NCBI RefSeq assembly: GCF_963675585.1
Contig: NZ_OY776414.1
Coordinates: 1,529,001-1,593,000, forward strand
Source: an uncultured Draconibacterium sp.
Lineage (GTDB): Bacteria; Bacteroidota; Bacteroidia; Bacteroidales; Prolixibacteraceae
Reading direction: 5' to 3'
Length of the DNA stretch: 64,000 nucleotides
Shown piece by piece: positions 11,999 through 32,168 of this stretch (positions within the stretch are counted from its first letter, which is position 1; each line of letters starts with the position of its first letter). Under the pieces are notes generated by a model that saw only the letters and a list, made by a program, of their open reading frames with translations, had not been told where the DNA came from and ran no database searches. The translations under genes were made by a program, and so were the position numbers.

Positions 11999-12044
11999 TT
12001 TCTGATTGTTTAATTTCTGTTGCAAAACATATTGATTGAAATTT

Positions 12045-12064
12045 TTCCGTGTACGAACACGAAA
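12045..12064. promoter_or_regulatory. LacI-type operator in front of the regulator gene
   Basis: TTCCGTGTACGAACACGAAA, a near-perfect palindrome (CGTGT-ACGA-ACACG core). A nearly identical site is at 32149-32168 in front of uxaE. It lies just upstream of a -7 element (12080-12087), in the -33 region of that promoter, consistent with autoregulation by the LacI-type protein encoded next. Sequence and duplication are seen; the binding protein is inferred. Confidence 0.8.
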
Positions 12065-12135: not shown

Positions 12136-13200
12136 ATTATCAAACAAAACATTCAAATAAGAATTAAAGATATTGCAGAAAGAGCAAAAGTATCAATTGG
12201 CACTGTCGACCGTGTACTTCACAACCGTGGAGAAGTAGCTCCTGCAACCCGTAAAAAGATTCTTCAAATTATTGAAGAACTTGATTATCAACCCAATATT
12301 CTTGCAAGTACTCTGGCATCAAAAAAGTCGGCTGTATTTGCAACCCTATTTCCTGAACCGCCTTCGAAAGAAGGATATTGGAGCAAACCCTTAAAAGGCG
12401 TTAAAAAGCGAATTTCGGAGTTGGGCCAATATGGCGTTCAAATTCAGTCGTTTACATTTGACCAAACCGACTCAAAAAATTTCGTCCATGAAACTGAACG
12501 AATAGTGGAATTACATCCCGACGGAGTTGTTTTGGCACCATTCTTTAAAAAGGAGTCGCTCGAGTTTATTAAAAAGCTTAAAAAACTTGAGATCCCTTTT
12601 GTATTTATCGATTCGGAAATAAAAGATGCAGGCCATTTGGGATACATTGGACAAGACTCTTACCAAAGTGGAATGGTTTCAGGAAAACTTCTTGATTTAT
12701 TGGTTCAGGAAGGAAATATTCTTGTTGTTCATTTTGCAAAAGAAATGGACAATCAAAACCACCTTGTTCAGCGCGAAAAAGGGTTTTACGACTGGTACAA
12801 GAAAAAAGAAGGTAACATTCACGAAATATTTACCACCGATGTACCCGACACCAACGACGCAAAGTGGATGATGAAAATCGAATCAAAAATCAGGGAGAAG
12901 AACATAAGGGGAATTTTTGTTACCAACTCGAAAGTTTTTCACATTGGCCAGTTGCTCGAAAAATTAAATCTGAAGCACATTAAAGTGATCGGGCACGATT
13001 TACTAAAGGAAAACGTAGAATGTTTGAAGAACGATTTGGTGCAATTTTTAATCTGCCAGCGTCCTGAAGAACAAGGATATAACTCTGTAAATAAATTATT
13101 TAGAAGCGTTGTTCAAAAACGTGAAATCGCCAAACGAAATTACACCTCGATTGACATTGTAACCAAAGAAAATATCGATTACTACAAAGAATTTAAATAA
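12136..13200 (+). CDS. LacI-family transcriptional regulator with a non-canonical start codon
   Basis: A cytoplasmic sugar-responsive DNA-binding protein. The frame contains a complete N-terminal LacI helix-turn-helix (IRIKDIAERAKVSIGTVDRV, then the hinge region DYQPNILASTLASKKS) and a periplasmic-binding-protein-like effector domain (VFIDSEIKDAGHLGYIGQDS). No ATG, GTG or TTG occurs in frame between the stop at 12115-12117 and the DNA-binding domain. The first in-frame TTG, at 12421, would remove the whole helix-turn-helix. Homologues usually begin 3-8 residues before IRIKDIA, which fits ATT at 12136 or ATC at 12139 (next codons AAA CAA AAC). I give 12136, 354 aa. The gene ends 7 bases before the SDR gene, so it leads the operon. 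Alternatives: a lost start codon, or a sequencing error. Confidence 0.85.
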   Translation: MIKQNIQIRIKDIAERAKVSIGTVDRVLHNRGEVAPATRKKILQIIEELDYQPNILASTLASKKSAVFATLFPEPPSKEGYWSKPLKGVKKRISELGQYGVQIQSFTFDQTDSKNFVHETERIVELHPDGVVLAPFFKKESLEFIKKLKKLEIPFVFIDSEIKDAGHLGYIGQDSYQSGMVSGKLLDLLVQEGNILVVHFAKEMDNQNHLVQREKGFYDWYKKKEGNIHEIFTTDVPDTNDAKWMMKIESKIREKNIRGIFVTNSKVFHIGQLLEKLNLKHIKVIGHDLLKENVECLKNDLVQFLICQRPEEQGYNSVNKLFRSVVQKREIAKRNYTSIDIVTKENIDYYKEFK

Positions 13201-13207
13201 AACTAAT

Positions 13208-14059
13208 ATGCAAGCATTATCATTCAACGACTTAAACGGCAAAGTATGTGTAATAACAGGCGGTGCCGGTGTTTTAGGAAGCGCCATGGTGAAAGCCATT
13301 GCCTCGGTAGGTACCAAAATTGCCATTGCCGACATCAATAAAGAAGTAGCCGATAAAGTGGCTGCAGAAATCGCTGCAGAATCGGGTGCCACAGTAATTG
13401 GAATTGAAGCCAATGTACTTGATAAAGCTTCACTTGAAAAAGCGAAAGCCGAAATTAACCAGAAACTTGGCGAAATTGATATTCTCATAAACGGTGCAGG
13501 CGGTAATAGTCCGCAAGCTACAACAAAAGTGGAAGTAATGACCGAAGACAACATGGACAAACTGGAAGATACTTTCTATGGTTTGGAGATGGAAGGTTTC
13601 GACAAAGTGTTTGCTTTAAACTTTAAAGGTACATTATTACCCACAATGGTTTTCACCACCGACATGCTCAAAAACAAAAAAGGAGTTGTGTTAAATGTTT
13701 CATCAATGAACTCGTATAAACCATTGACAAAAATTCCGGCTTATTCTGCTGCCAAAGCATCTATAAATAATTTTACCGAATGGCTGTCGGTTCATTTGGC
13801 AAAAGTTGGGATACGTGTAAATGCGATTGCTCCCGGATTTTTCATCACACATCAAAACCGTTTTTTGGTTATGGATGAAAAAACAGGAAACTATAGTCCT
13901 CGCGGACAAAAAATTGTAGACAATACGCCAATGGGTAAATTTGGTGAACCCGAAGATCTTCAGGGTGCCACCTTATTTCTTATTTCCGATGTATCTAATT
14001 TTATTACCGGTATTGTAATCCCGGTTGATGGCGGATACAGCGCTTTTGGCGGAGTTTAA
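13208..14059 (+). CDS. uxuB: SDR oxidoreductase, probable D-fructuronate reductase (D-mannonate oxidoreductase)
   Basis: A cytoplasmic NAD(P)-dependent short-chain dehydrogenase of 283 aa. The Rossmann glycine motif GGAGVLG is at about residues 18-24, the NAG-like block is INGAGG, and the catalytic Ser (NVSSMNS) and YSAAK Tyr/Lys follow. The long, specific middle part (LEDTFYGLEMEGFDKVFALN) and the C-terminus (TGIVIPVDGGYSAFGGV) resemble the Bacillus YjmF/UxuB type that reduces fructuronate to mannonate. This fits the hexuronate genes uxaC and uxaE in the co-regulated minus-strand operon. It starts 7 bases after the LacI-type gene. The substrate assignment is by family resemblance and context. 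Confidence 0.75.
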   Translation: MQALSFNDLNGKVCVITGGAGVLGSAMVKAIASVGTKIAIADINKEVADKVAAEIAAESGATVIGIEANVLDKASLEKAKAEINQKLGEIDILINGAGGNSPQATTKVEVMTEDNMDKLEDTFYGLEMEGFDKVFALNFKGTLLPTMVFTTDMLKNKKGVVLNVSSMNSYKPLTKIPAYSAAKASINNFTEWLSVHLAKVGIRVNAIAPGFFITHQNRFLVMDEKTGNYSPRGQKIVDNTPMGKFGEPEDLQGATLFLISDVSNFITGIVIPVDGGYSAFGGV

Positions 14060-14095
14060 ACCACAAAAAAACCTAAATTCTAACACTTACAAAAA

Positions 14096-15496
14096 ATGAA
14101 AAGAAGAGACTTTCTAACCACAAGTGCCGGTGCTGCAGTTGGAGCTACTGTATTGTCAAATCCGGTTCATGCCGCTGTTTCGAATGCTTCTAAACGAAGA
14201 ATTGCCTTGGTAGGCACCGGAGTGCGGGGAACCTCGTTCTGGGGAAAAAGAATCGTTGAAAACTATGGCGATATAACCGAATTTGTTGGACTTTGCGATA
14301 TTAATCCTGGTCGCCTGGAACTGGCAAAAAAATACATGGGCGTTAATTGCCCGGTTTATACCGATTTCGACAAAATGATAGCAGAAACCAAACCTGAATT
14401 GGTTATGGTGACTACCATGGACTCTACACATCATATATACATTATCCGGGCTTTGGAACTGGGAGTTGATGTATTAACCGAAAAACCATTAACCACCGAC
14501 GAAGTTAAGGCGCAAGCCATTATAGATGCTGAAAAAAGGACAGGTAGAAAAGTTATTGTAGGATTCAATTATCGATACGGAACGTTATTTAGCGCGATAA
14601 AAGAACAGCTGGCAAAAAAACCAACAGGCCAGATAACTTCTGTCGATTTTCACTGGTATTTGAATACATTTCACGGAGCATCCTATTTTCGCCGCTGGCA
14701 TGGTGAGCGCGATAAAGGTGGAACTTTGCTGGTACACAAAGCTACTCACCACTTCGATCTGTTAAACTGGCTGATCGACTCCGATCCGGTTGAAGTAGTT
14801 GCTTATGGCGACCTGGAACATTACGGAAAGAACAATAAATTCCGCGGAGCAAACTGCCGTACTTGTGCTTACACCGATAAATGCCAGTATTATTGGGACA
14901 TAACCAAAGACGAACGTTCGTATCAATTGTATGTTGAAAACGAAAAATACGATGGATACATCAGGGACAATTGTTTGTGGCGTAACGATGTTGACATTTA
15001 TGATAAAATGGCCGTTCAAATAAAATATGCCAATAATGTACAAGTGAGTTACTCACTAACTACCTACTCTCCTTATGAAGGTTGGCGAATTACATTCAAC
15101 GGCAAAAACGGACGACTTGAATCGTGGGAGGATATTCCATGGAGAAGAAATGAGAAAGTCGATCAGGCTGCTCTTCATGCGGCTGAAATGAATCAGGATG
15201 CAGGAGGCGATGTGCGTTATGATGAGATCTTTTTCCAGGAGAATTTTACAAAAGACTACGAAATGATTAAGGTTGAATCAACCAAAGGTGGTCATGGCGG
15301 TGGCGATAACCGTTTGCAGGATAAAATTTTCAGAACACCGGATATGGCTGATCCATACAAACACGCAGCCGGTTTGCGCGATGGAGTAATGTCGGCAATA
15401 ATCGGAATTGCAGCCCGTAAGTCAATCGAAGAAAAACGACCAGTTAAAATAGAAGAACTAACAAGTATAGTACCTCACCCAACCAGAGGAGCTTAA
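14096..15496 (+). CDS. Tat-exported Gfo/Idh/MocA family oxidoreductase
   Basis: A predicted NAD(P)-dependent sugar or glycoside oxidoreductase of 466 aa with a twin-arginine signal (KRRDFLTTSAGAAVGA, ending near VHAA), so it should act in the periplasm. The Rossmann motif VGTGVRG, the EKPL motif and the (V)GFNYRYG block are those of the family. A Cys-rich stretch around residues 254-265 (NCRTCAYTDKC) is unusual for the general family and may bind a metal or form disulfides outside the cytoplasm. Such exported members often remain bound to their cofactor. It follows the SDR by 36 bases and is separated from the next gene by a hairpin at 15504-15527. The substrate is unknown; a glycoside or uronate derivative is plausible from context. 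Confidence 0.85.
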   Translation: MKRRDFLTTSAGAAVGATVLSNPVHAAVSNASKRRIALVGTGVRGTSFWGKRIVENYGDITEFVGLCDINPGRLELAKKYMGVNCPVYTDFDKMIAETKPELVMVTTMDSTHHIYIIRALELGVDVLTEKPLTTDEVKAQAIIDAEKRTGRKVIVGFNYRYGTLFSAIKEQLAKKPTGQITSVDFHWYLNTFHGASYFRRWHGERDKGGTLLVHKATHHFDLLNWLIDSDPVEVVAYGDLEHYGKNNKFRGANCRTCAYTDKCQYYWDITKDERSYQLYVENEKYDGYIRDNCLWRNDVDIYDKMAVQIKYANNVQVSYSLTTYSPYEGWRITFNGKNGRLESWEDIPWRRNEKVDQAALHAAEMNQDAGGDVRYDEIFFQENFTKDYEMIKVESTKGGHGGGDNRLQDKIFRTPDMADPYKHAAGLRDGVMSAIIGIAARKSIEEKRPVKIEELTSIVPHPTRGA

Positions 15497-15503
15497 AAAA
15501 AAA

Positions 15504-15527
15504 TAAGCCAGATTGTTATCTGGCTTA
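15504..15527 (+). terminator. Hairpin after the exported Gfo/Idh gene
   Basis: A perfect 10-bp stem (TAAGCCAGAT / ATCTGGCTTA) with a TGTT loop, followed by a short T-containing tract (ATTTTC). It is 8 bases past the stop. The short T-tract suggests partial termination, which would make the downstream genes depend partly on a second promoter. Confidence 0.65.
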
Positions 15528-15535
15528 ATTTTCGC

Positions 15536-15557
15536 ACGTTACCGTTAACGCTAACGT
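15536..15557. promoter_or_regulatory. 22-bp imperfect palindrome before the PfkB kinase gene (possible operator)
   Basis: ACGTTACCGTT and AACGCTAACGT form a palindrome centred on GTTAAC with a single mismatched pair. It lies between the hairpin at 15504-15527 and the kinase gene, and a TTATTTTG sequence (15562-15569) resembling a -7 element follows at once. This arrangement suggests an internal promoter with its own operator, different in sequence from the CGTGTACG site. The palindrome is visible; its function is inference. Confidence 0.5.
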
Positions 15558-15694
15558 ACTTTATTTTGAAGAATAATTAGTTAAAGAATTATAAGAAGTA
15601 TGGATTGGAAAACTAAAGCTTATTTATTTGCGTAGTAAATAAGATAGTTAACCGGTGTGATGTAAAATTGAAAACAAATCAAAAAAATAGAACA

Positions 15695-16774
15695 ATGAGT
15701 ATTGAATTAAAACAAAATTGTAAATATGCGATGTTGGTTCCAACCAGCATGGGAACCAGAATTACCCCTGAAAACGGACAACCCGTTCACTCCAGCGATA
15801 AATTTACATTATATGCAACCAGTGCTGAAACAAATGTGGCCAGCATTTCGTCGTATTTAGGTTTACCGGTAAAGGTGCTAACAACCTTTGTAAAAGGAAG
15901 TCCGATTGCTCAGTTTATCAAAAGCAACCTAAAAGCCCGCCATATGGACTACGAAGGTCCGGAAGTAGAACAAGGTGATCCGTGGGGTTATCGTCACCAG
16001 ATTAATATCGCCGACAGTGGTTACGGTTCGCGTGGGCCTCGTGTATTTAACGATCGTGCCGGCGAAGTTGGACGTACCTTAAACGCCAAAGATTTTGATT
16101 TGGAAAGAATTTTTGGAGAAGAAGGAGTTCAAATCGTACATCTTTCAGGTTTAATTGGTGCTCTTTCTCCTGAAACCACACAGTTCTGTCTTGAAATTGC
16201 CAGAGCTGCAAAAAAACACGGCACTAAAATTTCTTTCGATTTAAATCACAGAGCTTCGTTTTGGAAAGGTCGTGAAGAACAATTGCGCAAAGATTTTACA
16301 GAAATCGCTTCAGTTTCTGATATACTTATTGGTAACGAAGAAGATTTCCAGTTGTGTTTTGGCATTGAAGGACCAGCTGCCGGAGGCGAAGGACTAAAAG
16401 CAAAAATTGATGGTTTTAAAGGTTTAATAAACCGTGTAAAAGAAGCGTTTCCTAATGCTTCCGTTTTTGCAACCACACTTCGCGAAGTAATCAGTGTAAA
16501 TGAACATTTATGGGGAGCCATAATGTTGGATGGAGAAAACTGGCATGTTGTTGAGCCCCGAAAAATTACAGTGCTCGACCGAATTGGTGGAGGCGATGGT
16601 TTTGTGGGAGGAATGCTCTACGGTATACTTAAAAACTGGGATGCCGAAAAATGGCCTCAGTTTGGCTGGGCTACAGGAGCAATGGCAACCACCTTTTTAA
16701 CCGACTATGCGCAACCTGCCGACGAAGATCAGGTATGGAGCATCTGGGGCGGAAATGCACGGGTAAAACGATAG
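15695..16774 (+). CDS. PfkB-family sugar (acid) kinase
   Basis: A cytoplasmic ATP-dependent kinase of 359 aa. The ATG at 15695 (MSIELKQN) is preferred over the TTG at 15668. The PfkB C-terminal signature is present as DRIGGGDGFVGG with the catalytic Asp, and an IGNEEDF block as in 2-keto-3-deoxygluconate kinases. It is a clear paralogue of the KdgK-type kinase at 28085-29185: both share IGNEEDF, FATTLR/IATTLR, and a C-terminal GG-ARV-R ending. Having a second KdgK-like kinase in the co-regulated cluster suggests a different substrate. I propose gluconate or another aldonate feeding Gnd, but 2-keto-3-deoxygluconate is also possible. It is followed by the LarA-type gene after 96 bases. Confidence 0.85.
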   Translation: MSIELKQNCKYAMLVPTSMGTRITPENGQPVHSSDKFTLYATSAETNVASISSYLGLPVKVLTTFVKGSPIAQFIKSNLKARHMDYEGPEVEQGDPWGYRHQINIADSGYGSRGPRVFNDRAGEVGRTLNAKDFDLERIFGEEGVQIVHLSGLIGALSPETTQFCLEIARAAKKHGTKISFDLNHRASFWKGREEQLRKDFTEIASVSDILIGNEEDFQLCFGIEGPAAGGEGLKAKIDGFKGLINRVKEAFPNASVFATTLREVISVNEHLWGAIMLDGENWHVVEPRKITVLDRIGGGDGFVGGMLYGILKNWDAEKWPQFGWATGAMATTFLTDYAQPADEDQVWSIWGGNARVKR

Positions 16775-16870
16775 ATTTTCCAAATCTGACGTAATCCGGT
16801 ATTCTAGCTGACAGATGATAAAATTCAAATTAAAAGTCGGGCAGCAGCCCTTTATTTTAAAAATTACAAA

Positions 16871-18157
16871 ATGTTATATTACGAAATAGGTTCAACCGAA
16901 ACAGCGCTAAAAGCTGAAGACCTGAGATACGGATTGTTTGTTGCTTTAAAAAAATTAGGCAATAAACAGAAGGTATTGGCTATTCCTCCTGATTATACTC
17001 GTTTGCCTTCGCGCGCAGGAGAATTGACAGAATATGCATGGGAGTATTACAAAGAAAAACTGACCGATGTACTTCCTGCGCTTGGTACGCATTCACCTAT
17101 GACAATGGAACAAATAAGCCATATGTTTGGAAAAATGCCGACTGACTTGTTTCGCGAACACGATTGGAGAAATGATGTAATTACGCTGGGTACCGTGCCT
17201 GCTGAATTTGTAAAGGAAGTTTCGGAAGGAGCTTGTGATTATACATGGCCGGCACAGGTAAATAAATTATTGGTTGAAGGAAATTTCGACCTGATTCTTT
17301 CCATTGGCCAGGTGGTACCACACGAAGTAGTAGGAATGGCCAACTACAACAAAAACATTTTTGTTGGAACCGGTGGTTCTGAGGGAATTAATAAAAGCCA
17401 CTACATTGGAGCTGCCTATGGAATGGAAAAAATGATGGGTAGAGCTGATACTCCTGTGCGTAAAGTTTTTAATTACGCATCAGAAAATTTCTCGAACCAC
17501 CTTCCCATATTATACATACAAACCGTTGTTGGCTTAAACAAACAAGGCAAGTTACAAACGTACGGATTGTTTATTGGCGACGATTTTGAAGTATTCGACA
17601 AAGCAGCAAAACTCTCGTTGCAGGTAAATTTTGAAATGCTCGACAAACCAATTAAAAAGGCTGTTGTCTGGCTCGATCCTACCGAATTTAAAAGCACATG
17701 GCTGGGTAACAAAAGTATTTACCGTACACGAATGGCTTTGGCCGATGACGGTGAACTAATTGTACTTGCACCGGCATTAAAAGAATTTGGAGAAGACAAG
17801 CAAATTGATAAACTGATACGTAAATATGGTTATTTTGGAACACCTCACACCTTAAAAATGGTGAGCGAAAACGAAGAATTACAGAATAACCTTGGAGCAG
17901 CTGCTCACCTTATTCACGGTTCTTCCGAGGGTCGTTTCAGCATAACATATTGTCCGGGAAAAGGCGAAGAAAACCTTACACAAAAAGAAATAGAAAGTGT
18001 TGGTTTTAAGTATGCCGACTACGATGAAATGACCGCAAAATACAATCCGAAAAAGCTGAAAGATGGATACAATACCTTACCCGATGGTGAAGAAATCTTT
18101 TATATTTCAAATCCAGCCATTGGACTTTGGGCCTTTAAGGATCGGTTTGAGTATTAA
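16871..18157 (+). CDS. LarA-type (DUF2088) nickel-pincer racemase/epimerase homologue
   Basis: A 428-aa member of the lactate racemase superfamily, whose studied members use a nickel pincer nucleotide to racemise or epimerise 2-hydroxyacids. Relative to Lactiplantibacillus LarA (His108, His174, Lys184, His200, from memory), this protein has His74 in GTHSPMT, His151 in VVPHEVVG, Lys161 in NYNKN and His177 in NKSHYIG. The spacings 151-161-177 equal 174-184-200 exactly, so the cofactor lysine and nickel/acid-base histidines appear intact. The family motif PPDYTRLPSR is also present. The maturation genes larB, larC and larE are not in the window. Between a sugar kinase and sugar-acid dehydrogenases, it is more likely an aldonate 2-epimerase (for example mannonate/gluconate) than a lactate racemase; this is inference. 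Confidence 0.85.
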   Translation: MLYYEIGSTETALKAEDLRYGLFVALKKLGNKQKVLAIPPDYTRLPSRAGELTEYAWEYYKEKLTDVLPALGTHSPMTMEQISHMFGKMPTDLFREHDWRNDVITLGTVPAEFVKEVSEGACDYTWPAQVNKLLVEGNFDLILSIGQVVPHEVVGMANYNKNIFVGTGGSEGINKSHYIGAAYGMEKMMGRADTPVRKVFNYASENFSNHLPILYIQTVVGLNKQGKLQTYGLFIGDDFEVFDKAAKLSLQVNFEMLDKPIKKAVVWLDPTEFKSTWLGNKSIYRTRMALADDGELIVLAPALKEFGEDKQIDKLIRKYGYFGTPHTLKMVSENEELQNNLGAAAHLIHGSSEGRFSITYCPGKGEENLTQKEIESVGFKYADYDEMTAKYNPKKLKDGYNTLPDGEEIFYISNPAIGLWAFKDRFEY

Positions 18158-18197
18158 ATAACTGTTTAATAGAATAAAATTCAATTCATTTATAAGA

Positions 18198-19187
18198 ATG
18201 GACACCGTTAACTGGGGAATCATAGGAGTTGGAAATGTTACTGAAGTAAAAAGCGGACCGGCCTTTTACAAAATCGCACATTCAAAATTAGTTGCAGTAA
18301 TGCGCCGTAATGCTGATAAAGCTGAGGATTTTGCAAAACGACATAATGTTCCCAAATGGTACTCCAACGCATCTGAATTAATTAACGATCCGGATATAAA
18401 CGCCATTTACATAGCCACTCCACCCAATTCGCATGCCGATTATGCCATTGAAGCCATGAAAGCCGGGAAAGCGGTTTACGTAGAAAAACCCATGGCAAAA
18501 TCGTATGCCGAATGTATGAAAATGCTTCAAGTGGCAGAAAAAACCGGCTCGTCTTTATGGGTAGCTTATTATCGACGAACACTGCCTGCTTTTCTAAAAG
18601 TGAAAGAGTTGGTGGAAAGCGGAGCAATTGGTAAGCCATTAATGGTAAACATTAAGCTCTACAAACAGGCTACAGAAAGAAACCAATTGCCGGAAGAAAT
18701 GCACTGGCATGTGTTTCCCGAAATTTCGGGAGCCGGGCATTTTTTCGACCTGGCTTCGCACCAATTGGACTATCTCGATTTTGTATTTGGAGAAATAGCC
18801 GATGTGAAAGGAAATGCAGCAAATATTGGAGGATTATATCCTGCTGAAGATACCGTTTCCGGTACATGGAAACATAAATCGGGGATTATTGGAAGCGGAA
18901 GCTGGTGTTTTGTAGTAGATGAAAATTCGGAGGAAGATTATATACAGATTATCGGAGAAAAAGGCGAAATTTGTTTGCCTTGTTTTAGTCCGGGAAATGT
19001 AAAAGTAAAAACAGCGGAAGGAATCAGGGAATTAACATTCCAGAATCCGGAACACATTTCACAGAACCTTGTGCAACAGGTTGTAGATGAATTAAGAGGA
19101 ATTGGCAAATGTGTAAGTACCGGCAAATCGGCTGCCCGAACAAGTTGGGTACTCGATGAAATGGTAAAAGAATATTACGCTGACTAG
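18198..19187 (+). CDS. Gfo/Idh/MocA family oxidoreductase, cytoplasmic
   Basis: An NAD(P)-dependent dehydrogenase of 329 aa without signal peptide. The N-terminal Rossmann motif is IIGVGNV (residues about 8-14), the family EKPMAKS motif follows near residue 97, and the catalytic-domain helix has a HFFDLASHQLDYL stretch with the conserved Asp and His. Unlike the gene at 14096 it lacks a Tat leader and the Cys cluster, so the two work in different compartments. It lies 40 bases after the LarA-type gene and 41 before the PdxB-type gene, in the same operon. The substrate is not evident; a sugar or aldonic acid is likely. Confidence 0.88.
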   Translation: MDTVNWGIIGVGNVTEVKSGPAFYKIAHSKLVAVMRRNADKAEDFAKRHNVPKWYSNASELINDPDINAIYIATPPNSHADYAIEAMKAGKAVYVEKPMAKSYAECMKMLQVAEKTGSSLWVAYYRRTLPAFLKVKELVESGAIGKPLMVNIKLYKQATERNQLPEEMHWHVFPEISGAGHFFDLASHQLDYLDFVFGEIADVKGNAANIGGLYPAEDTVSGTWKHKSGIIGSGSWCFVVDENSEEDYIQIIGEKGEICLPCFSPGNVKVKTAEGIRELTFQNPEHISQNLVQQVVDELRGIGKCVSTGKSAARTSWVLDEMVKEYYAD

Positions 19188-19228
19188 TTATTATAATCTG
19201 ACTAATCGAATTGAAAAGAATAGAATAA

Positions 19229-20365
19229 ATGAAAATTGTTGTTGATAACAAAATACCTTATATAAAAGGAGCATTGGAACCTTTCGCCGAAGTAGTTTAC
19301 CTTCCGGGAAGTGAAACGACCAAAGAAGTTGTAAAAGATGCTGATGCAATTATCACGCGTACCCGCACCATTTGTAACAGTAGTTTGCTCGAAGGTTCGA
19401 AAGTAAAATACATCGCTACTGCCACCATTGGTTTCGATCACATTGATACCGATTATTGCGAAAGAGCCGGTATTAAATGGACAAACGCACCGGGATGTAA
19501 TGCAGAGAGTGTAAACCAGTACGTTGCTTCTGCCCTGTTCTCCTGGTCGATGCGTAAACGAAAAGATTTAGCCGGATTAACAATTGGCATAGTTGGAGTT
19601 GGCAATGTCGGGAGTAAAGTGGCCAGAACATGCGAAATTATTGGCATGAAAGTGCTGTTAAACGATCCTCCACGAGAAAGAATGGAAGGTTCGGACAAAT
19701 TTGTTTCGCTCCAAACCATTCAAAAACAAGCAGATATAATCACCTTTCATGTTCCTTTAAATATGAGTGGACCCGATTCCACTTTTCATATGGCAAATGA
19801 AACCTTTCTTCAAAATCTGGACAAAAAACCATTGATCATCAATTCTTGTCGTGGTGAAGTAGTTGATACTGAATCGATTTACAACGCCATTGAAGCCAAC
19901 GATGTGGATGGTTTTATAGTTGACTGCTGGGAAGACGAACCGGAAATCAACCTTGATTTACTCAATCAAACCGAATACGGAACGCCACACATTGCAGGTT
20001 ATTCAAAAGACGGGAAAGCCAACGGCACTAAAATGAGCATTCAGGCATTAAGCCGGTTTTTCAATCTTGGAATTAATGATTGGCAACCATCGGGAGTTGA
20101 TCTTCCTGAAAATACAACCATAAAAATTGATGGAAACCAACGACGTGAATATTCAATTCTTGCAGAAGCAATTCTTTCAACCTACGATATTGAAACAGAC
20201 GATGAAGCATTAAAAGATACCCCCCATTTGTTTGAAAAACTAAGAGGCGATTATCCGGTTCGCAGAGAATTTGACACCTACACTATTGAAGCAAAAAACA
20301 TTGAAAAAGTGACTTTGGATAAATTGAAGGCACTGGGATTTAAAATACAACAAATTACAAATTAG
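19229..20365 (+). CDS. pdxB: PdxB-type 4-phosphoerythronate dehydrogenase family protein
   Basis: A D-2-hydroxyacid dehydrogenase of 378 aa. The NAD-binding motif is GIVGVGNVGS (about residues 119-128), followed by the catalytic Arg block (NSCRGEVVD), Glu (WEDEPEI) and His (TPHIAGYS). A C-terminal extension of about 90 residues (KLRGDYPVRREFDTY) is the PdxB-specific dimerisation domain, so it belongs to PdxB and not generic SerA-like dehydrogenases. PdxB oxidises 4-phospho-D-erythronate in vitamin B6 synthesis. Here it lies in a sugar-acid operon, 6 bases before gnd, so it may serve as the genome's PdxB, supplying PLP, or oxidise another phospho-aldonate. A search for a second pdxB and for pdxA/pdxJ elsewhere would decide. 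Confidence 0.85.
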   Translation: MKIVVDNKIPYIKGALEPFAEVVYLPGSETTKEVVKDADAIITRTRTICNSSLLEGSKVKYIATATIGFDHIDTDYCERAGIKWTNAPGCNAESVNQYVASALFSWSMRKRKDLAGLTIGIVGVGNVGSKVARTCEIIGMKVLLNDPPRERMEGSDKFVSLQTIQKQADIITFHVPLNMSGPDSTFHMANETFLQNLDKKPLIINSCRGEVVDTESIYNAIEANDVDGFIVDCWEDEPEINLDLLNQTEYGTPHIAGYSKDGKANGTKMSIQALSRFFNLGINDWQPSGVDLPENTTIKIDGNQRREYSILAEAILSTYDIETDDEALKDTPHLFEKLRGDYPVRREFDTYTIEAKNIEKVTLDKLKALGFKIQQITN

Positions 20366-20371
20366 TATAAA

Positions 20372-21826
20372 ATGAAAAAATTAGCAGACATTGGTTTAAT
20401 AGGCTTGGCCGTAATGGGCGAGAACCTTGTATTAAACATGGAGAGTAAAGGTTTTACTGTTGCAGTTTTTAACCGTACAGTTGAAAAAGTTGACAGTTTT
20501 ATTAGTGGTCGCGGTGCGGGCAAAAATTTTATCGGAGCCCACTCCATCGAAGAGCTTTGTGCTTCGCTCGAGCGTCCAAGAAAAGTTATGATGCTTGTAA
20601 AAGCAGGTGCCCCTGTCGATGCATTTATCGATATGGTAATCCCTCATTTAGAAGAAGGCGATATAATTATCGATGGTGGAAACTCACATTTCCCTGATAC
20701 GATCCGTCGTACAGAATATGTAGAAAGTAAAGGACTTCTTTACATTGGAACAGGTGTTTCGGGTGGTGAAGAAGGTGCTTTATTAGGACCCTCAATTATG
20801 CCGGGTGGATCGGCAAAAGCATGGCCTGCTGTTAAAGAAATATTCCAGGCTGTTTCGGCAAAAGTAGAAGATGGCTCACCTTGCTGCGAGTGGGTTGGTA
20901 CTGATGGTGCCGGTCATTTTGTAAAAATGGTTCACAACGGTATTGAGTATGGCGATATGCAAATTATTACCGAAGCCTATCAGTTAATGAAAGAACTGAT
21001 GGGAATGAACAACGACGAAATGCACCAGGTTTTCAAAAAATGGAACGAAGGTATTTTAGATAGTTACCTGGTTGAGATTACACGTGACATTTTGGGTTAC
21101 AAAGACGAAAACGGTGAAGAAACTGTTGAGATGATTTTGGATACAGCGGGTCAGAAAGGAACCGGTAAATGGACCGGTATTTCGGCGCTCGATTTAGGTA
21201 TTCCTTTAACGCTTATTGGCGAATCGGTTTTTGCACGTTGTTTATCGGCTCAAAAAGATTTACGTGTTGAGGCATCAAAAGTAATTAATGGACCAAAACC
21301 AGAATTTGTTGGTGACAAACAGCAATTTATCGACGATATTGAAAGTGCATTATTGGGAGCAAAAATTATTTCTTATGCACAAGGTTACAACCTGATGATG
21401 GAAGCTGCGAAGGAGTACAACTGGGATTTAAATTATGGCGATATCGCCCTGATGTGGCGCGGCGGTTGTATTATCCGTTCGGTGTTCTTAGGCGACATTA
21501 AAAAAGCGTTTGATAAAAATGCTGAATTGCCTAATTTATTGCTCGATCCGTTCTTTAAAGAAAAAGTGGAAGAAGCTCAGGCTGGCTGGAGAAGAGTTTG
21601 TGCAACTGCCCTTTCAAATGGTGTTCCTGTTCCGGCATTAACTTCGGCACTTTGTTATTTCGACGGTTTCCGCAGCGAGCGTTTACCGGCTAACTTACTT
21701 CAGGCACAACGCGACTATTTTGGTGCGCATACGTACGAAAGAATTGACAAACCTCGCGGCGAGTTTTTCCACACCAACTGGACCGGACGTGGTGGTGATA
21801 CTGCTTCGTCAACATACAATGTATAG
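20372..21826 (+). CDS. gnd: 6-phosphogluconate dehydrogenase, decarboxylating
   Basis: The cytoplasmic pentose-phosphate enzyme that oxidises and decarboxylates 6-phosphogluconate to ribulose-5-phosphate. It is 484 aa, the usual length. The N-terminal Rossmann motif is IGLAVMGENLVLNM, followed by VFNRTVEKVD (an NADP-type NRT signature). The substrate loop GGNSHFPDT, GVSGGEEGAL and the catalytic HFVKMVHNGIEYGDMQ block are complete, and the C-terminal HTNWTGRGGDTASSTYNV ending is typical. It is the last gene of the plus-strand cluster, 6 bases after pdxB, and is followed by two hairpins. Its presence in a sugar-acid operon without zwf or pgl suggests that 6-phosphogluconate is made there directly by phosphorylation of gluconate. 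Confidence 0.97.
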   Translation: MKKLADIGLIGLAVMGENLVLNMESKGFTVAVFNRTVEKVDSFISGRGAGKNFIGAHSIEELCASLERPRKVMMLVKAGAPVDAFIDMVIPHLEEGDIIIDGGNSHFPDTIRRTEYVESKGLLYIGTGVSGGEEGALLGPSIMPGGSAKAWPAVKEIFQAVSAKVEDGSPCCEWVGTDGAGHFVKMVHNGIEYGDMQIITEAYQLMKELMGMNNDEMHQVFKKWNEGILDSYLVEITRDILGYKDENGEETVEMILDTAGQKGTGKWTGISALDLGIPLTLIGESVFARCLSAQKDLRVEASKVINGPKPEFVGDKQQFIDDIESALLGAKIISYAQGYNLMMEAAKEYNWDLNYGDIALMWRGGCIIRSVFLGDIKKAFDKNAELPNLLLDPFFKEKVEEAQAGWRRVCATALSNGVPVPALTSALCYFDGFRSERLPANLLQAQRDYFGAHTYERIDKPRGEFFHTNWTGRGGDTASSTYNV

Positions 21827-24503: not shown

Positions 24504-24528
24504 ACAAATGTCATGACATTTGTCATGA
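24504..24528. promoter_or_regulatory. Overlapping palindromes upstream of the zinc dehydrogenase (probable operator)
   Basis: ACAAATGTCATGACATTTGT (24504-24523) is a perfect 20-bp palindrome. It overlaps a second perfect inverted repeat, TCATGACA-TT-TGTCATGA (24511-24528). A related half-site, TTGTCATGTCAT, recurs at 24601-24612. The cluster is 75-100 bases upstream of the dehydrogenase start codon. This looks like cooperative binding of a dimeric regulator; no regulator gene lies next to it. Confidence 0.6.
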
Positions 24529-24725
24529 ATCACTCTTAGGTGCAATTTTGAATATTATTATAAGATATTCGAAAAAACATAGAAATATTATAAAACATAT
24601 TTGTCATGTCATTCATCTTAATAACCAAGCAGTTAATACTCACAATTCGAGATTTTTTAACAAACATTAATAAATTTTTAAAATTGCCTCACGTTTAAAT
24701 CAATTTTATGTTATCTTAGCGATGC

Positions 24726-25676: not shown

Positions 25677-27137
25677 TTATACTAAATCAGTAATTCGTTT
25701 GTACTCGGGTACCAGCGACTTCATTACTACCCATCCAATCAGGTACGCAAATGCACAAATACAGAAAATAATAAAATAACCTGCTTCAACACCTTTGAAA
25801 TTTAAAAGTGTCATTTGAGTTTCGCGTGCAAAATCGAACAATACACCTGATCCTTTATTAATGACTACCGAACCTAAACCACCGGCTAATCCACCAATAC
25901 CGGTAACTGTTGCAACCGCTGCCTTTGGAAACATATCGCTTACTGTAGTAAAAATATTTGCCGACCAAGCCTGGTGCGCAGCACCTGCAATACCAATAAT
26001 AACAATGGGGAACCAATAAGAGAAATGGCCCAAAGGTTGCGCCACTACAGCCAACAATGGAAAGAATGCAAAAATCAGCATCGATTTCATACGACCGGCA
26101 TACGCATGCATTCCTTTCTGCTCAACAAAATAGGTGGGTAACCAGCCTCCAATAATGGATAATAATGTGATTGCATACAAAATGAATAAACCAATTTGTG
26201 CTCTTGGATCAGATGATTCCATACCATAAACAGAACTCAAATATGCAGGTGTCCAGAACAGGTAGAACCACCAAACACCGTCAGTCATGAATTTTCCGAA
26301 TGCAAATGCCCAGGTCTGCTTGTATTTAAACAATTTCATAAAGCTTATTTTTCGTCCGGCATTATCATCTGTTCCATCCTGAACTTCATCATCATCCTGA
26401 TCTTGTCTGATGTAATCCAATTCTGCTTTATTTACTTTTGGGTGTTTGTAAGGCTTATTATAGCCAAACTGCCACCATCCCATCCAAAGAAAACCCAATG
26501 CACCAATAAGAATAAAGGCAGCTTCCCATCCAAAATGTTTTGCTAAAAGCGGAATGGTAACCGGAGCGGCCAAAGCTCCAACAGTTGAACCTGCGTTAAA
26601 AATGGAAGTAGCATAAGCACGGTCTTTTTTAGGAAAGTATTCGGCAGTTGTTTTAATAGCAGCCGGAAAGTTACCTGCTTCACCAATGGCTAAAACCAAA
26701 CGGGCAAAAACAAACAGAACAACACTCACATTAAGAACTCGTGCAACATCTTCCACCTGATTAATGTAGTGACGTGCCTGCTCGAATCCAACAAACCAAT
26801 GTCCTGTAATTACTCCTGATGTTGCAATTCCACAAAATGCGTGTAACACAGCACCAACTGACCAAATTGCAATGGCCCACATGTATCCTTTTTTGGTACC
26901 TAACCAGTCAACCAAACGACCGGCAAAAAGTAAGCTTATTGCGTAAAAAAGAGAGAATAAGGCAGTGATAGTTCCATAATCGCTATCTGTCCAATGAAAT
27001 TCCGGTGCGATAAAGTCCTTCCACGTCAGGGAAAGCACCTGTCGGTCCATGTAATTTACGGTCGTTGCCATAAACAACATTGCTACTATCGTCCATCGAT
27101 ATTTGGACATTTTTTCAACTGTTTGATTTATGCTCAT
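25677..27137 (-). CDS. exuT: MFS hexuronate transporter, ExuT-like
   Basis: An inner-membrane major-facilitator symporter of 486 aa expected to import galacturonate or glucuronate. About twelve hydrophobic helices are seen. The first helix carries the anion:cation symporter signature TTVNYMDRQVLSL, and GRLVDWLGTKKGY is the MFS loop 2-3 motif. GEAGNFPAAIKTTAEYFPKKDRAYATS is the family block after helix 4. A longer than usual loop between helices 3 and 4 (about residues 110-140, EQARHYINQVEDVARV) is present. It follows eda by 52 bases and belongs to the same operon, with kdgK and uxaC/uxaE upstream, which supports the hexuronate assignment. Confidence 0.88.
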   Translation of the reverse strand: MSINQTVEKMSKYRWTIVAMLFMATTVNYMDRQVLSLTWKDFIAPEFHWTDSDYGTITALFSLFYAISLLFAGRLVDWLGTKKGYMWAIAIWSVGAVLHAFCGIATSGVITGHWFVGFEQARHYINQVEDVARVLNVSVVLFVFARLVLAIGEAGNFPAAIKTTAEYFPKKDRAYATSIFNAGSTVGALAAPVTIPLLAKHFGWEAAFILIGALGFLWMGWWQFGYNKPYKHPKVNKAELDYIRQDQDDDEVQDGTDDNAGRKISFMKLFKYKQTWAFAFGKFMTDGVWWFYLFWTPAYLSSVYGMESSDPRAQIGLFILYAITLLSIIGGWLPTYFVEQKGMHAYAGRMKSMLIFAFFPLLAVVAQPLGHFSYWFPIVIIGIAGAAHQAWSANIFTTVSDMFPKAAVATVTGIGGLAGGLGSVVINKGSGVLFDFARETQMTLLNFKGVEAGYFIIFCICAFAYLIGWVVMKSLVPEYKRITDLV

Positions 27138-27189: not shown

Positions 27190-27858
27190 TTAATTTAGCT
27201 TTTGAATAATTGCAAGTGCATCTTTACATTTATTCGTAATATAATTCCAGTCTTTGTTCTCTAGTACATCTTTTGGAAATAATTGCGATCCCATTCCTAC
27301 ACAAGTAACTCCGGCATCAAACCAACCTTTTAAGTTATCTTCGGTTGGGGTTACACCGCCGGTAGGCATAATACTTGCCCATGGCATTGGCCCTTTTACT
27401 GCAGCAACAAAACTAGGTCCTCCCACCTGCGAACCAGGGAATATTTTAACTACTTCTGCTCCCAACTCGTGAGCTCTTCCAATTTCGGTTACTGAACCAC
27501 AACCGGGACTCCAGGCTATTTTTCGTCTGTTACAAACTTTTGCAGTTGCTTCGTCGATTAAAGGAGCCACAACAAAGTTGGTTCCCAAGGCGATGTACAT
27601 GGCAGCAGTTGCCTCATCAACAATAGAACCAACTCCCATAATCATTTCAGGACAGTTTTCAATTGTCCATTTGTTTAACTCTGCAAACAGCAATGTTGCA
27701 AAATCACCACGGTTAGTATACTCGAAAACACGTGCTCCACCATCGTAACAAGCTTTTACAACAGCCTTGCAAACGTCGATATCTTTGTGATAGAAAACCG
27801 GTACCATACCTGTTTCCTTCATTTTTAATGCTACTTCTATTCTTGAAAATCTAGCCAT
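27190..27858 (-). CDS. eda: 2-dehydro-3-deoxyphosphogluconate (KDPG) aldolase
   Basis: A cytoplasmic class I aldolase that splits 2-keto-3-deoxy-6-phosphogluconate into pyruvate and glyceraldehyde-3-phosphate. The ATG at 27858 (MARFSRIEVALKMKETGMVPVFYHKD) gives 222 aa, close to family length; the frame extends to 27912 but the extra 18 residues do not look conserved. The active-site Glu is in FEYTNRGDF, the GVGSIVDEATA block is conserved and the Schiff-base Lys is in EVVKIFPGS. The TGGVTPTEDN phosphate-binding loop is also seen. It lies between kdgK and exuT, and completes the KDG to pyruvate + G3P branch. Confidence 0.93.
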   Translation of the reverse strand: MARFSRIEVALKMKETGMVPVFYHKDIDVCKAVVKACYDGGARVFEYTNRGDFATLLFAELNKWTIENCPEMIMGVGSIVDEATAAMYIALGTNFVVAPLIDEATAKVCNRRKIAWSPGCGSVTEIGRAHELGAEVVKIFPGSQVGGPSFVAAVKGPMPWASIMPTGGVTPTEDNLKGWFDAGVTCVGMGSQLFPKDVLENKDWNYITNKCKDALAIIQKLN

Positions 27859-28000
27859 TTTCTTTGTAATTTTTCTTAATTCTATTTTTGTTTTTATGTA
27901 ACTGCTCTGCATTTGGCTGCAAAAGAAGTTTCGTGTTGTGAAGCGATTTTTCCAAATTACTAAAAGATGAAGTAAACCTCAACACCAATTTTGTATTTAG

Positions 28001-28084: not shown

Positions 28085-29185
28085 CTAGCGATCAACACGT
28101 GCGCTCCCACCTCCGATTATCTTTTCAACTTCGGATAAAGTTGCCATAGTAGTATCACCAGGGGTTGTCATGGCCAATGCGCCGTGTGCAGCACCATATT
28201 CAACAGCCTTCGCCCCATCATTAAATTCGAGGAATCCATAAATTAAACCAGATGCAAAACTATCGCCACCACCAACACGATCCATGATTTCAAGATCTTC
28301 GCGGTGTTGAGCTTCGTGAATAACACCTTCGGAATAACAGATTGCACCCCATGAATTTACAGTTGCTGTTTTAACGGTACGTAATGTGGTTGCAATAACA
28401 TTAAAATTTGGAAATTCTTTGATTGCACTCTCAATCATTCCTTTGTATCCCGACAAATCCAATTCTTTCAGATTTTCGTCGTTTCCTTCAACTTCCAAAC
28501 CTAAACATGCCGTAAAATCTTCTTCATTACCGATCATTACATCCACATATTTGGCAATTTCGCGGTTTACTTCCTGTGCTTTCGCCTCACCACCAATTGC
28601 TTTCCAAAGCGATGGTCGGTAATTTAAATCATACGAAACAATGGTGCCGTATTTTTTAGCAATTTTTACTGCCTCGATAACAGTTTCGGCAGCAGATTCA
28701 GATAATGCAGCAAAAATACCACCGGTGTGCATCCAACGAACTCCTAAGGTTCCGAAAATGTATTCCCAGTCGATATCACCCGGTTTTAATTGAGAGGCTG
28801 CTGTATTTCCACGATCGGAAACGCCTTTTGCACCACGAATACCAAAACCTCTTTCAGTAAAATTCAATCCGTTACGAACGGTACGCCCACAACCATCGTA
28901 AGGCATCCATTTAACAAATTGGGTGTCTAATCCTCCCTGGAGCATGAAATCTTCAACTAAAGCCCCAACTTCATTGTCGGCAAGTGCTGTAATAATAGCG
29001 GTTTTCTTTCCAAAACACCTTCTAAGGCCACGGGAAACATTATATTCTCCTCCACCTTCCCAGGCTTTAAACTGGCGGGCAGTTCGTATTCTGCCTTCAC
29101 CCGGATCCAACCTTAACATAACTTCACCAAGAGAAATACAATCGTATGTGCACTCTGATTTTGATTTGATATTCAATTTTGCCAT
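28085..29185 (-). CDS. kdgK: 2-dehydro-3-deoxygluconokinase (PfkB family)
   Basis: A cytoplasmic sugar-acid kinase of 366 aa that phosphorylates 2-keto-3-deoxygluconate at C6. N-terminal GEVMLRLDPGEGRI, the GGGEYNVSRGLRR sugar-binding block, IGNEEDF and the catalytic signature DRVGGGDSFASG near the C-terminus are all present. It lies upstream of eda in the same operon and downstream of uxaC, so its role is well placed. The start ATG at 29185 follows a leader containing a LacI-type palindrome (29292-29305). It is a paralogue of the kinase at 15695-16774. Confidence 0.92.
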   Translation of the reverse strand: MAKLNIKSKSECTYDCISLGEVMLRLDPGEGRIRTARQFKAWEGGGEYNVSRGLRRCFGKKTAIITALADNEVGALVEDFMLQGGLDTQFVKWMPYDGCGRTVRNGLNFTERGFGIRGAKGVSDRGNTAASQLKPGDIDWEYIFGTLGVRWMHTGGIFAALSESAAETVIEAVKIAKKYGTIVSYDLNYRPSLWKAIGGEAKAQEVNREIAKYVDVMIGNEEDFTACLGLEVEGNDENLKELDLSGYKGMIESAIKEFPNFNVIATTLRTVKTATVNSWGAICYSEGVIHEAQHREDLEIMDRVGGGDSFASGLIYGFLEFNDGAKAVEYGAAHGALAMTTPGDTTMATLSEVEKIIGGGSARVDR

Positions 29186-29360: not shown

Positions 29361-30764
29361 TTACTCAAAATTAAAATACTCTTTCGCGTTATTGAAACTG
29401 ATATTCTCTACCATTTTACCCAACAATTCCATGTCGTATGGAATTTCACCATTTTCTACATCGTTACCCAATAAATTACACAGAGTTCTGCGGAAATATT
29501 CATGGCGGGTGTATGATAAATAACTACGCGAATCGGTTAACATCCCCACAAAACGACTTAAAAGTCCCAAACTCGAAAGCGCCTGCATTTGTTTTTCCAT
29601 TCCATCTTTTTGATCGAGGAACCACCAGCCTGAACCGTACTGCATTTTACCAGGGACCGAACCGTCCTGGAAATTACCAATCATAGTTGCCATCAACTCA
29701 TTATCGCGCGGATTCAAATTATACAACACCGTCTTCGATAGTTTATCTTCCAAATCCAAACGGTTTAATAATTTTGAAAGCGGACGTGCAACATCAAAAT
29801 CACCGATCGAATCAAAACCGGTATCAGGGCCTAACTTATTAAATAGGCGGGTATTGTTGTTGCGTAATGCGCCTATGTGGAATTGCTGAGTCCAACCCCG
29901 CGAATGATCCATGATTCCAAACTCGTACAGCATGCACGACTGGAATTTTAAAATTTCTTCGGCTGTTAAATTATTTCCACCACGTACTTTTGTAAAAATC
30001 TTTTCAATTTCAGCTTCGATATAATCGGCAGCCAAAACAGTTTCAATTCCATGGTCGCTCAAACGGCATCCATTTTGATGGAAAAATTCGTGACGATTAT
30101 CCAACGCATCCATTAAGTCGCTAAAACTTGCAATATTCATATCTGCAGCTTCTTCCAGCTTTTTAATGTAGTCGTTATACGATTTTGTATCTTCTACAGC
30201 CATGGCTTTATCGGGGCGCCAGGCCGGTAAAACATTTACTTCAAAACCATCGGCTTTTATCGCACGGTGGTATTCAAGAGAATCAATTGGATCGTCGGTT
30301 GTACAAATTGTATGAACGTTTGCCATTTTAATAATACCACGACACGAATACTCAGGAGTCTGTAATTTTGCGTTACATTCATCCCAAATCTCTTTCGCTG
30401 TTTCCGGGCTGAGTACTTTATCAATTCCGAAGAATTTTTTCAACTCAAGATGTGTCCAGTGAAACAAAGGATTACGAACCGTGTGCGGAACGGTTTCTGC
30501 CCATTTTTCAAATTTTTCCCAGTCGCTGGCATCGCCTGTACAATATTTTTCGTCAACACCATTGGTACGCATTCCACGCCATTTGTAATGGTCGCCATAC
30601 AACCAAATTTGTGTTATATTTTCGTAGCTTTTATCCTCTGCAATTTCCTTTGGATTGATATGACAGTGGTAATCAAAAATCGGCATCTTAGCCGCATGAT
30701 TGTGATATAATTCCTTTGCAACATCGTTCTGCAACAAGAAATCCTTATCCATAAACTTTTTCAT
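29361..30764 (-). CDS. uxaC: Glucuronate/galacturonate isomerase
   Basis: The cytoplasmic uronate isomerase that turns glucuronate into fructuronate and galacturonate into tagaturonate. It is 467 aa, the usual length. The amidohydrolase-like N-terminal metal motif FDYHCHINPKEIAED is present, with TDDPIDSLEYH and HIGALRNNN further on, and SRSYLSYTRHEYFRRTLCN near the C-terminus. It is 97 bases downstream of uxaE and 175 bases upstream of kdgK in the same direction. It is the first committed step after uptake by ExuT. Confidence 0.95.
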   Translation of the reverse strand: MKKFMDKDFLLQNDVAKELYHNHAAKMPIFDYHCHINPKEIAEDKSYENITQIWLYGDHYKWRGMRTNGVDEKYCTGDASDWEKFEKWAETVPHTVRNPLFHWTHLELKKFFGIDKVLSPETAKEIWDECNAKLQTPEYSCRGIIKMANVHTICTTDDPIDSLEYHRAIKADGFEVNVLPAWRPDKAMAVEDTKSYNDYIKKLEEAADMNIASFSDLMDALDNRHEFFHQNGCRLSDHGIETVLAADYIEAEIEKIFTKVRGGNNLTAEEILKFQSCMLYEFGIMDHSRGWTQQFHIGALRNNNTRLFNKLGPDTGFDSIGDFDVARPLSKLLNRLDLEDKLSKTVLYNLNPRDNELMATMIGNFQDGSVPGKMQYGSGWWFLDQKDGMEKQMQALSSLGLLSRFVGMLTDSRSYLSYTRHEYFRRTLCNLLGNDVENGEIPYDMELLGKMVENISFNNAKEYFNFE

Positions 30765-32109: not shown

Positions 32110-32148
32110 TTTTATTGATTTAATTATTTAAAAACACTAAAATAAAAT

Positions 32149-32168
32149 TTCCGTGTACGTGCACGAAA
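32149..32168. promoter_or_regulatory. LacI-type operator in front of uxaE
   Basis: TTCCGTGTACGTGCACGAAA, differing from the site at 12045-12064 at only two central positions. It is 40 bases upstream of the uxaE start codon and overlaps the -7 element of the predicted promoter, so binding would block transcription. The duplicate links the two divergent clusters to one regulator. Confidence 0.8.

Follow-up and report, generated by a model that had tools for sequence, protein, structure and literature searches.

A group 18 LarA homologue in a hexuronate operon of a Draconibacterium genome in which larB, larC and larE are undetected

The subject of this analysis is a plus-strand operon in a 64,000-nucleotide stretch (the window) of the genome of an uncultured Draconibacterium sp. 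(contig NZ_OY776414.1, positions 1,529,001 to 1,593,000). The operon encodes a short-chain dehydrogenase/reductase (SDR), a PfkB-type kinase (here PfkB2), a LarA homologue of NCBIfam NPN_18_hexonate (here LarA18) and the 6-phosphogluconate dehydrogenase Gnd. LarB, LarC and LarE, which the LarA family is thought to need for its nickel-pincer nucleotide (NPN) cofactor, were all undetected in this genome, and LarA18 keeps all cofactor residues in other lineages that lack the three. The best reading of the locus, which we hold to be rather probable from its sequence and context, is a branch leading from mannonate through 6-phosphogluconate to ribulose-5-phosphate, by which sugar acids of plant walls would enter the pentose phosphate pathway, with the cofactor of LarA18 supplied by a source other than LarBCE.

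Results

LarA18 is conserved in genomes without detectable larB, larC and larE

The profile search of the window genome (6.03 Mb, four contigs, rated 100% complete) gave zero matches to larC. The larB and larE searches of the same genome returned sub-cut-off matches only, and these were PurE, NadE, GuaA, QueC, ArgG and MnmA. A complete NPN system, that is LarA together with LarB, LarC and LarE, was not found in the genome. The first-pass annotation, which had proposed the route, had named the absence of the pincer-cofactor genes as a finding that would speak decisively against it. Since larBCE is also missing from many relatives whose locus is intact, we do not regard the absence as a refutation of the route. 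The genus itself is mixed: genome G156 has all three genes, clustered as NikR-LarE-LarC-LarB ahead of a membrane protein gene (DsbD_2 match), and the window genome (G000) has none.

Among 295 genomes of the order, LarA18 was found in 45 (44 over the cut-off and G226, in which the gene is divided between contigs; G003, with an E value of 6e-4, was dropped), LarC in 36 and both in 26. The searches for LarB, LarE, Lar_N and Zwf covered 56 of the 295 genomes, made up of the 45 with LarA18, the 10 with LarC but no LarA18, and G288. In these 56, LarB and LarE tracked LarC exactly. All three were present in 36 genomes and none in 20, and 19 of the latter encode LarA18. Absence of all of larBCE thus applies to 19 of the 45 LarA18 genomes, across several lineages. 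On the LarA tree the larBCE label changes eight times by parsimony, at least four times on starred branches (a quick tree with SH-aLRT support only). A family-level sample of 108 genomes was scored for LarC and not for LarA18; 46 had LarC, including five of the same genus, and at least 20 of the genus were without it.

The LarA18 proteins of all 19 larBCE-free genomes keep the NPN-tethering, nickel and catalytic residues. Seven pairs from genomes without larBCE had pN values of 0.06-0.22 vs pS values of 0.77-0.83 (raw pN and pS replaced dN/dS, because silent sites were saturated in 12 of 14 pairs). The low pN relative to pS indicates that LarA18 is under constraint in larBCE-free genomes.

Several explanations for the missing genes were tried and rejected. 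Loss in assembly gaps does not agree with the completeness of the window genome, with the sampled LarA18 members of g21 (three) and of g55, g110 and g147 (two each), which are uniformly without larBCE, or with G144, which has LarA18 and no larBCE in a 5.6 Mb assembly (6% contamination) of which a single contig makes up 5.26 Mb. Divergence below the detection threshold was rejected since the weak matches are other named enzymes, and strongly diverged LarB and LarC were still detected in G128 and G209. A role of larBCE in serving only other LarA proteins was not borne out either: the 36 LarA18 genomes without another Lar_N match split into 17 with and 19 without larBCE, counts that may miss divergent LarA proteins, as the Lar_N model also fails the C. 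glutamicum control. No residue pattern separated the LarA18 proteins of genomes with and without larBCE at a 75% majority per class, and no neighbour gene exclusive to larBCE-free genomes was seen among the genes compared. We conclude that LarA18 probably works in larBCE-free cells and obtains its cofactor, or an equivalent, by a route outside LarBCE.

Eight of the 10 LarC genomes without LarA18 are also without a Lar_N match (G013, G119, G138, G172, G193, G209, G212 and G213; LarB, LarC and LarE are present in each). By analogy with cyanobacteria, for which service to another protein has been suggested (PMC11796402), the cofactor may serve another protein in these eight. According to the same source the reverse of the case described here, larBCE without larA, occurs in about 15% of genomes.

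LarA18 resembles the GntE epimerases

The assignment of the LarA homologue to a hexonate-epimerase-like group, made at first pass, was borne out by its score over the cut-off of NF052594 ('nickel-dependent putative hexonate epimerase'). The AlphaFold (AF2) model of LarA18 has a mean pLDDT of 93.5. Its best fold match was 4nar (TM-score 0.79, E 9.8e-31, 25% identity in the fold alignment), which is GntE2 of Thermotoga maritima (PMC7583248). Group 18 has been placed beside two D-gluconate 2-epimerase groups, and Desguin and co-workers hypothesised 'a hexonate' as its substrate (PMC7583248). The accessible text of the GntE literature (PMC7583248, PMC11770544) mentions no assayed group 18 member. 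The nearest named relative, among the best 80 of 151 LarA-encoding stretches, was the protein of Draconibacterium aestuarii (93%).

The correspondence of residues between LarA, GntE2 and LarA18 was taken from sequence alignments. D72, R75, H108, H174, K184, H200 and K298 of LarA correspond to D41, R44, H74, H151, K161, H177 and K281 of LarA18. These NPN-binding and catalytic residues are invariant in 45 aligned LarA18 sequences, as are the Glu of the E-V/S loop and the Trp of groups 18-20. (The truncated L135 was excluded from this alignment, A1; the divergent second copy of G252, L131, was kept in the alignment, in the tree and among the 45 loci.) Substrate recognition by GntE2 has been attributed to E155, S156, G286 and N348 (PMC7583248). 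LarA18 has E152, V153, N280 and N340 at these positions, two of the four being identical, and N340 is at least 90% conserved. Three arginines of LarA18, R285, R287 and R355, are invariant and lie opposite Lys, Gln and Thr in the 4nar alignment; 4nar carries an Arg of its own four places before the Thr that faces R355.

A kinase and Gnd mostly accompany LarA18

Conservation of the locus was assessed in a close set, the best 80 of the 151 LarA-encoding stretches (mostly Prolixibacteraceae/Paludibacter-like records, 78-93% LarA identity), and in a distant set, the 45 LarA loci of the order-wide sample. The limits used here and elsewhere (7 kb, 25 codons, 75% majority) were our own choices, and the 7 kb counts include contigs that end early. 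In the close set 75 loci had PfkB2 and 68 had Gnd at most 7 kb from LarA, and the loci that missed either were all on contigs ending nearby. In the distant set Gnd was near LarA in 36 of 45. PfkB2 was present in 21 of the distant loci and a PFK-A-type protein in 10; 14 had neither and none had both. The association of kinase, LarA18 and Gnd across the order is mostly steady.

The PFK-A-type protein matched PF00365 in the four cases scanned with Pfam and was PRK14072-like in the two scanned with NCBIfam. It is accompanied by a HAD-type hydrolase in nine of the 10 loci. In L092, L094, L098, L101, L103, L106, L107, L115 and L125 the pair fills the position of PfkB2, the interval between SDR and LarA. 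Such a replaceable kinase slot beside SDR and LarA favours a kinase step in the route. PfkB2 is 32% identical to the KdgK paralogue. Its best NCBIfam models were a fusion of 2-keto-3-deoxy-6-phosphogluconate (KDPG) aldolase and kinase and 2-keto-3-deoxygluconate (KDG) kinases, all below cut-off, and no gluconokinase family model was among its NCBIfam matches. KDG kinases are also its nearest relatives among solved proteins with a named function.

Of the 45 genomes with LarA18, 16 had no Zwf, and 14 of the 16 have gnd in the LarA locus (gnd was counted in LarA loci). In these 14 the proposed route would be the expected source of the 6-phosphogluconate used by Gnd. Eight of the 19 larBCE-free LarA18 genomes are of this type.

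The operon and the uxaE/uxaC group share an operator

A 21-base element, TTTCCGTGTACGnnCACGAAA, has two exact sites in the window, one ahead of the LacI regulator gene at the head of the operon, the other ahead of uxaE. At up to three mismatches 0.02 matches were expected in shuffles. The pattern was derived from these two sites, and its independent support is its recurrence in relatives. In the fetched related loci the operator core was found near the gene start (-450 to +120) of 52 of 86 LacI-like and 23 of 56 UxaE-like genes; as these genes are often divergent around one intergenic region, some sites were counted twice. The core occurred 67 times in 2.15 Mb vs zero times in one mononucleotide shuffle. 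The shared operator reported at first pass was thereby confirmed.

The lack of a mannonate dehydratase gene, also reported at first pass, is true of the operon but not of the genome, where UxuA is encoded at G000:C3:256305-257486 next to a second mannonate-type SDR. This second uronate locus (L136 3607-11451), on contig C3 of the window genome, holds UxuA and an SDR 39% identical to that of the window. By eye it also holds a further SDR, a KduI-like protein and a LacI-like regulator. The window operator was absent from the 19 kb fetched around uxuA.

The regulator gene itself has no ATG, GTG or TTG 5' of the helix-turn-helix (HTH) region. The same was found in 34 of 72 distinct HTH-bearing regulator loci, the window included (limit 25 codons). 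In all 34, the eighth codon before the I-K-D-I-A motif is ATC (26), ATA (6) or ATT (2), and several have in-frame TAA stops at -10 or -11. At this position the other 38 have ATG or GTG in six (L056, L073, L074, L079, L094 and L133) and TTG in L121. A self-regulated repressor with a conserved, non-canonical start codon would fit this pattern.

Gene map

The SDR, PfkB, LarA homologue and Gnd of the first-pass gene list were all found in place, with strong family matches (Table 1). The operon holds, beyond that list, two Gfo/Idh/MocA genes and PdxB. Because of the stem-loop that follows the first Gfo gene, a single unbroken operon transcript is not assured. The Gfo/Idh/MocA gene between SDR and kinase is found in a minority of related loci. 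The start of PfkB2 was set at ATG 15695 within a TTG-started open reading frame (15668-16774). Many relatives likewise have the gene for PdxB, an enzyme of vitamin B6 synthesis, in the interval from LarA to Gnd, perhaps in connection with erythrose-4-phosphate supply. Overlapping palindromes (ACAAATGTCATGACATTTGT and a neighbour) at 24504-24529, 5' of a minus-strand ADH gene, are possibly an operator of their own.

Table 1. Features of the LarA18 operon and the facing uxaE/uxaC group (window positions)
Feature	Position	Strand	Evidence and remarks
Operator 1	12044..12064	+	Exact TTTCCGTGTACGnnCACGAAA; 5' of LacI regulator heading LarA operon
LacI-family regulator, probable local repressor	12139..13200	+	PF00356, PF13407; apparent ATC start codon
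SDR, putative fructuronate to D-mannonate (UxuB/UxaD type)	13208..14059	+	NF006132 D-mannonate oxidoreductase, 379 bits, cut-off 281
Gfo/Idh/MocA oxidoreductase, Tat-like N-terminus (by eye)	14096..15496	+	PF01408, PF02894; optional locus member
Stem-loop, first Gfo gene/pfkB gap	15499-15532		Terminator score on minus strand only
PfkB2, sugar(-acid) kinase	15695..16774	+	PF00294; putative gluconate or mannonate kinase by context
LarA18, proposed C2 epimerase (mannonate or 6-phosphomannonate)	16871..18157	+	NF052594, 669 bits, cut-off 500
Second Gfo/Idh/MocA oxidoreductase	18198..19187	+	PF01408
PdxB, 4-phosphoerythronate dehydrogenase	19229..20365	+	NF001309, 450 bits, cut-off 434
Gnd, decarboxylating 6-phosphogluconate dehydrogenase	20372..21826	+	TIGR00873, 757 bits, cut-off 427
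MFS transporter, hexuronate/galactonate type	25677..27137	-	TIGR00893, 177 bits, below cut-off 395
Eda, KDPG aldolase	27190..27912	-	NF005499, 370 bits, over cut-off
KdgK-like PfkB kinase	28085..29185	-	KDG-kinase models, all below cut-off
UxaC, uronate isomerase	29361..30764	-	PF02614, 719 bits; NF002794, 681 bits
UxaE, tagaturonate/fructuronate epimerase	30862..32109	-	PF16257, 184 bits
Operator 2	32148..32168	+	Exact match to operator 1 pattern; 5' of uxaE

Discussion

We propose that the LacI repressor controls both divergent gene groups as a single hexuronate regulon. UxaC and UxaE would convert uronates to fructuronate, which the SDR would reduce to D-mannonate. LarA18 would invert C2 and the PfkB kinase would phosphorylate C6, and the resulting 6-phosphogluconate would be converted by Gnd to ribulose-5-phosphate, CO2 and NADPH. 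This oxidative branch would run beside UxuA, KdgK and Eda, with UxuA encoded elsewhere in the genome. LarA18 would use the usual tethered nickel-pincer chemistry, its cofactor coming from a source other than LarB, LarC and LarE. The sequence mannonate, gluconate, 6-phosphogluconate, ribulose-5-phosphate of the first-pass annotation agrees with the hexuronate context, the operator, the LarA group and the association with kinase and Gnd; it does not stand as it was stated, larBCE being undetected.

By analogy, the window appears to hold a Bacteroidota version of a T. maritima route, and the route itself has a precedent. According to citing papers, Rodionova 2012 proposed it for T. maritima; the D-mannonate to D-gluconate activity of GntE2 was measured, and in the view of its authors it probably gives mannonate access to the pentose phosphate pathway (PMC7583248). 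The T. maritima UxaR regulon comprises gnd-uxaRED-gntEK, with kdgAK-uxuBA (PMC3750489). In both systems UxaE, UxaD, a LarA-type protein, a kinase and Gnd are co-regulated or predicted to be so, and UxuA lies in a separate operon. The regulator of T. maritima is the GntR-type UxaR, whereas here it is of the LacI type; its kinase is GntK and here a PfkB; its LarA protein, GntE2, belongs to group 20 and that of the window to group 18. In the control searches T. maritima has LarB, LarC and LarE matches over cut-off, whereas the window genome has none. LarA18 shares with GntE1 and GntE2 (LarAH19/20) and with LarAH15 the fold, the NPN-binding and catalytic residues and the hexonate loop and Trp (PMC7583248, PMC11770544), but it has the low identity to 4nar given above and another partner kinase. 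The Lactobacillus suebicus route also starts at mannonate and ends at 6-phosphogluconate, followed by 6-phosphogluconate dehydrogenase; it differs in that phosphorylation comes first and the phosphoketolase pathway follows, and the genes for two of its steps were not identified (PMC6978723). The accessible portions of the literature yielded no report of the LarA family in larBCE-free genomes, no treatment of nickel-pincer enzymes in Bacteroidota and no description of the pathway variant with a PfkB or PFK-type kinase, a LacI operator and a group 18 LarA.

A number of observations weigh against the proposed branch. LarA18 and larBCE are strongly associated (26 of 45 vs 10 of 250 genomes, Fisher p 2e-17, uncorrected for kinship), a pattern that fits a need for the cofactor and makes it more difficult to account for the lack of these genes here. 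In C. glutamicum the LarE model TIGR00268 falls below cut-off in this species, the source of GntE1 (PMC11770544), although LarB and LarC pass, so absence of LarE alone is weak. UxuA elsewhere in the genome, with KdgK and Eda in the uxaE/uxaC group, offers mannonate an alternative fate. Zwf is present in the window genome, so Gnd is not dedicated to the branch here, and the gnd counts leave genome-wide copies aside. Among the 45 loci of the order sample, nine carry no gnd inside the 7 kb limit, five of them with contig room, and 14 have neither kinase type nearby. PfkB2 falls within the KDG-kinase branch, from which we know of no gluconate or mannonate kinase.

As to the order of the two central steps, we slightly favour epimerisation before phosphorylation. 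With the kinase first, PfkB2 would be a mannonate kinase and LarA18 a 6-phosphomannonate 2-epimerase, and 6-phosphogluconate would arise without free gluconate. L. suebicus extracts gave 6-phosphomannonate and then 6-phosphogluconate, and mannonate alone gave no gluconate (PMC6978723), although the candidate named there is itself a homologue of T. maritima GntE, and the GntE assays tabulated in PMC7583248 and PMC11770544 used D-mannonate without a phosphate group. The locus kinase lies mostly between SDR and LarA, but gene order is weak evidence. The invariant arginines R285, R287 and R355, placed opposite Lys, Gln and Thr of 4nar by alignment, may speak for a phosphorylated substrate. We give the kinase-first order somewhat less than an even chance. 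The source of the cofactor can be considered together with either order. Another cofactor in the same pocket, import of NPN or a precursor, or an undescribed synthesis would each be compatible with the mannonate to ribulose-5-phosphate branch, and together these are a real possibility, though short of probable. They agree with the joint loss of larB, larC and larE in 20 of the 56 genomes, with the repeated changes of label on the LarA tree and with the retention of the NPN-tethering and nickel residues in 19 of 19; yet no transporter or alternative pathway turned up (no genome-wide search was made), and the unchanged residues favour the same cofactor, hence supply over replacement.

It is improbable, in our judgement, that LarA18 is idle in larBCE-free genomes and that the remaining operon genes act by way of UxuA, KdgK and Eda, with PfkB2 as a second KDG kinase. 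The three known synthesis genes are undetected, UxuA is present, and PfkB2 is nearest to KDG kinases both among solved proteins of named function and among NCBIfam models; but LarA18 is under constraint and the locus is conserved in the same lineages, and the eight of 19 genomes without Zwf keep gnd in the LarA locus. We also consider it unlikely that LarA18 epimerises some other hexonate and that Gnd is linked to it through pentose phosphate or vitamin B6 (PdxB) needs. In favour of this reading, PMC7583248 goes no further than hypothesising 'a hexonate' as the substrate of group 18, and the route proposed here leaves the Gfo/Idh/MocA and PdxB genes without a role; however, Gnd is expected to need 6-phospho-D-gluconate, and the operator ties the operon to uxaE/uxaC.

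A further, tentative and rather doubtful suggestion combines two of these ideas: many Bacteroidota that lost larBCE would still operate an NPN-dependent uronate route, with NPN or a precursor as a shared, vitamin-like cofactor obtained from neighbours or an undescribed pathway, and in them LarA18 would be a 6-phosphomannonate 2-epimerase with PfkB2 as the mannonate kinase. If true, it would supply genes for two activities that are still without them. The LarA family has been regarded as dependent on LarB, LarC and LarE, yet it persists with every cofactor residue in place in lineages in which none of these was found; the larBCE-free LarA18 lineages offer a clean test of whether the nickel cofactor is salvaged, made otherwise or replaced.

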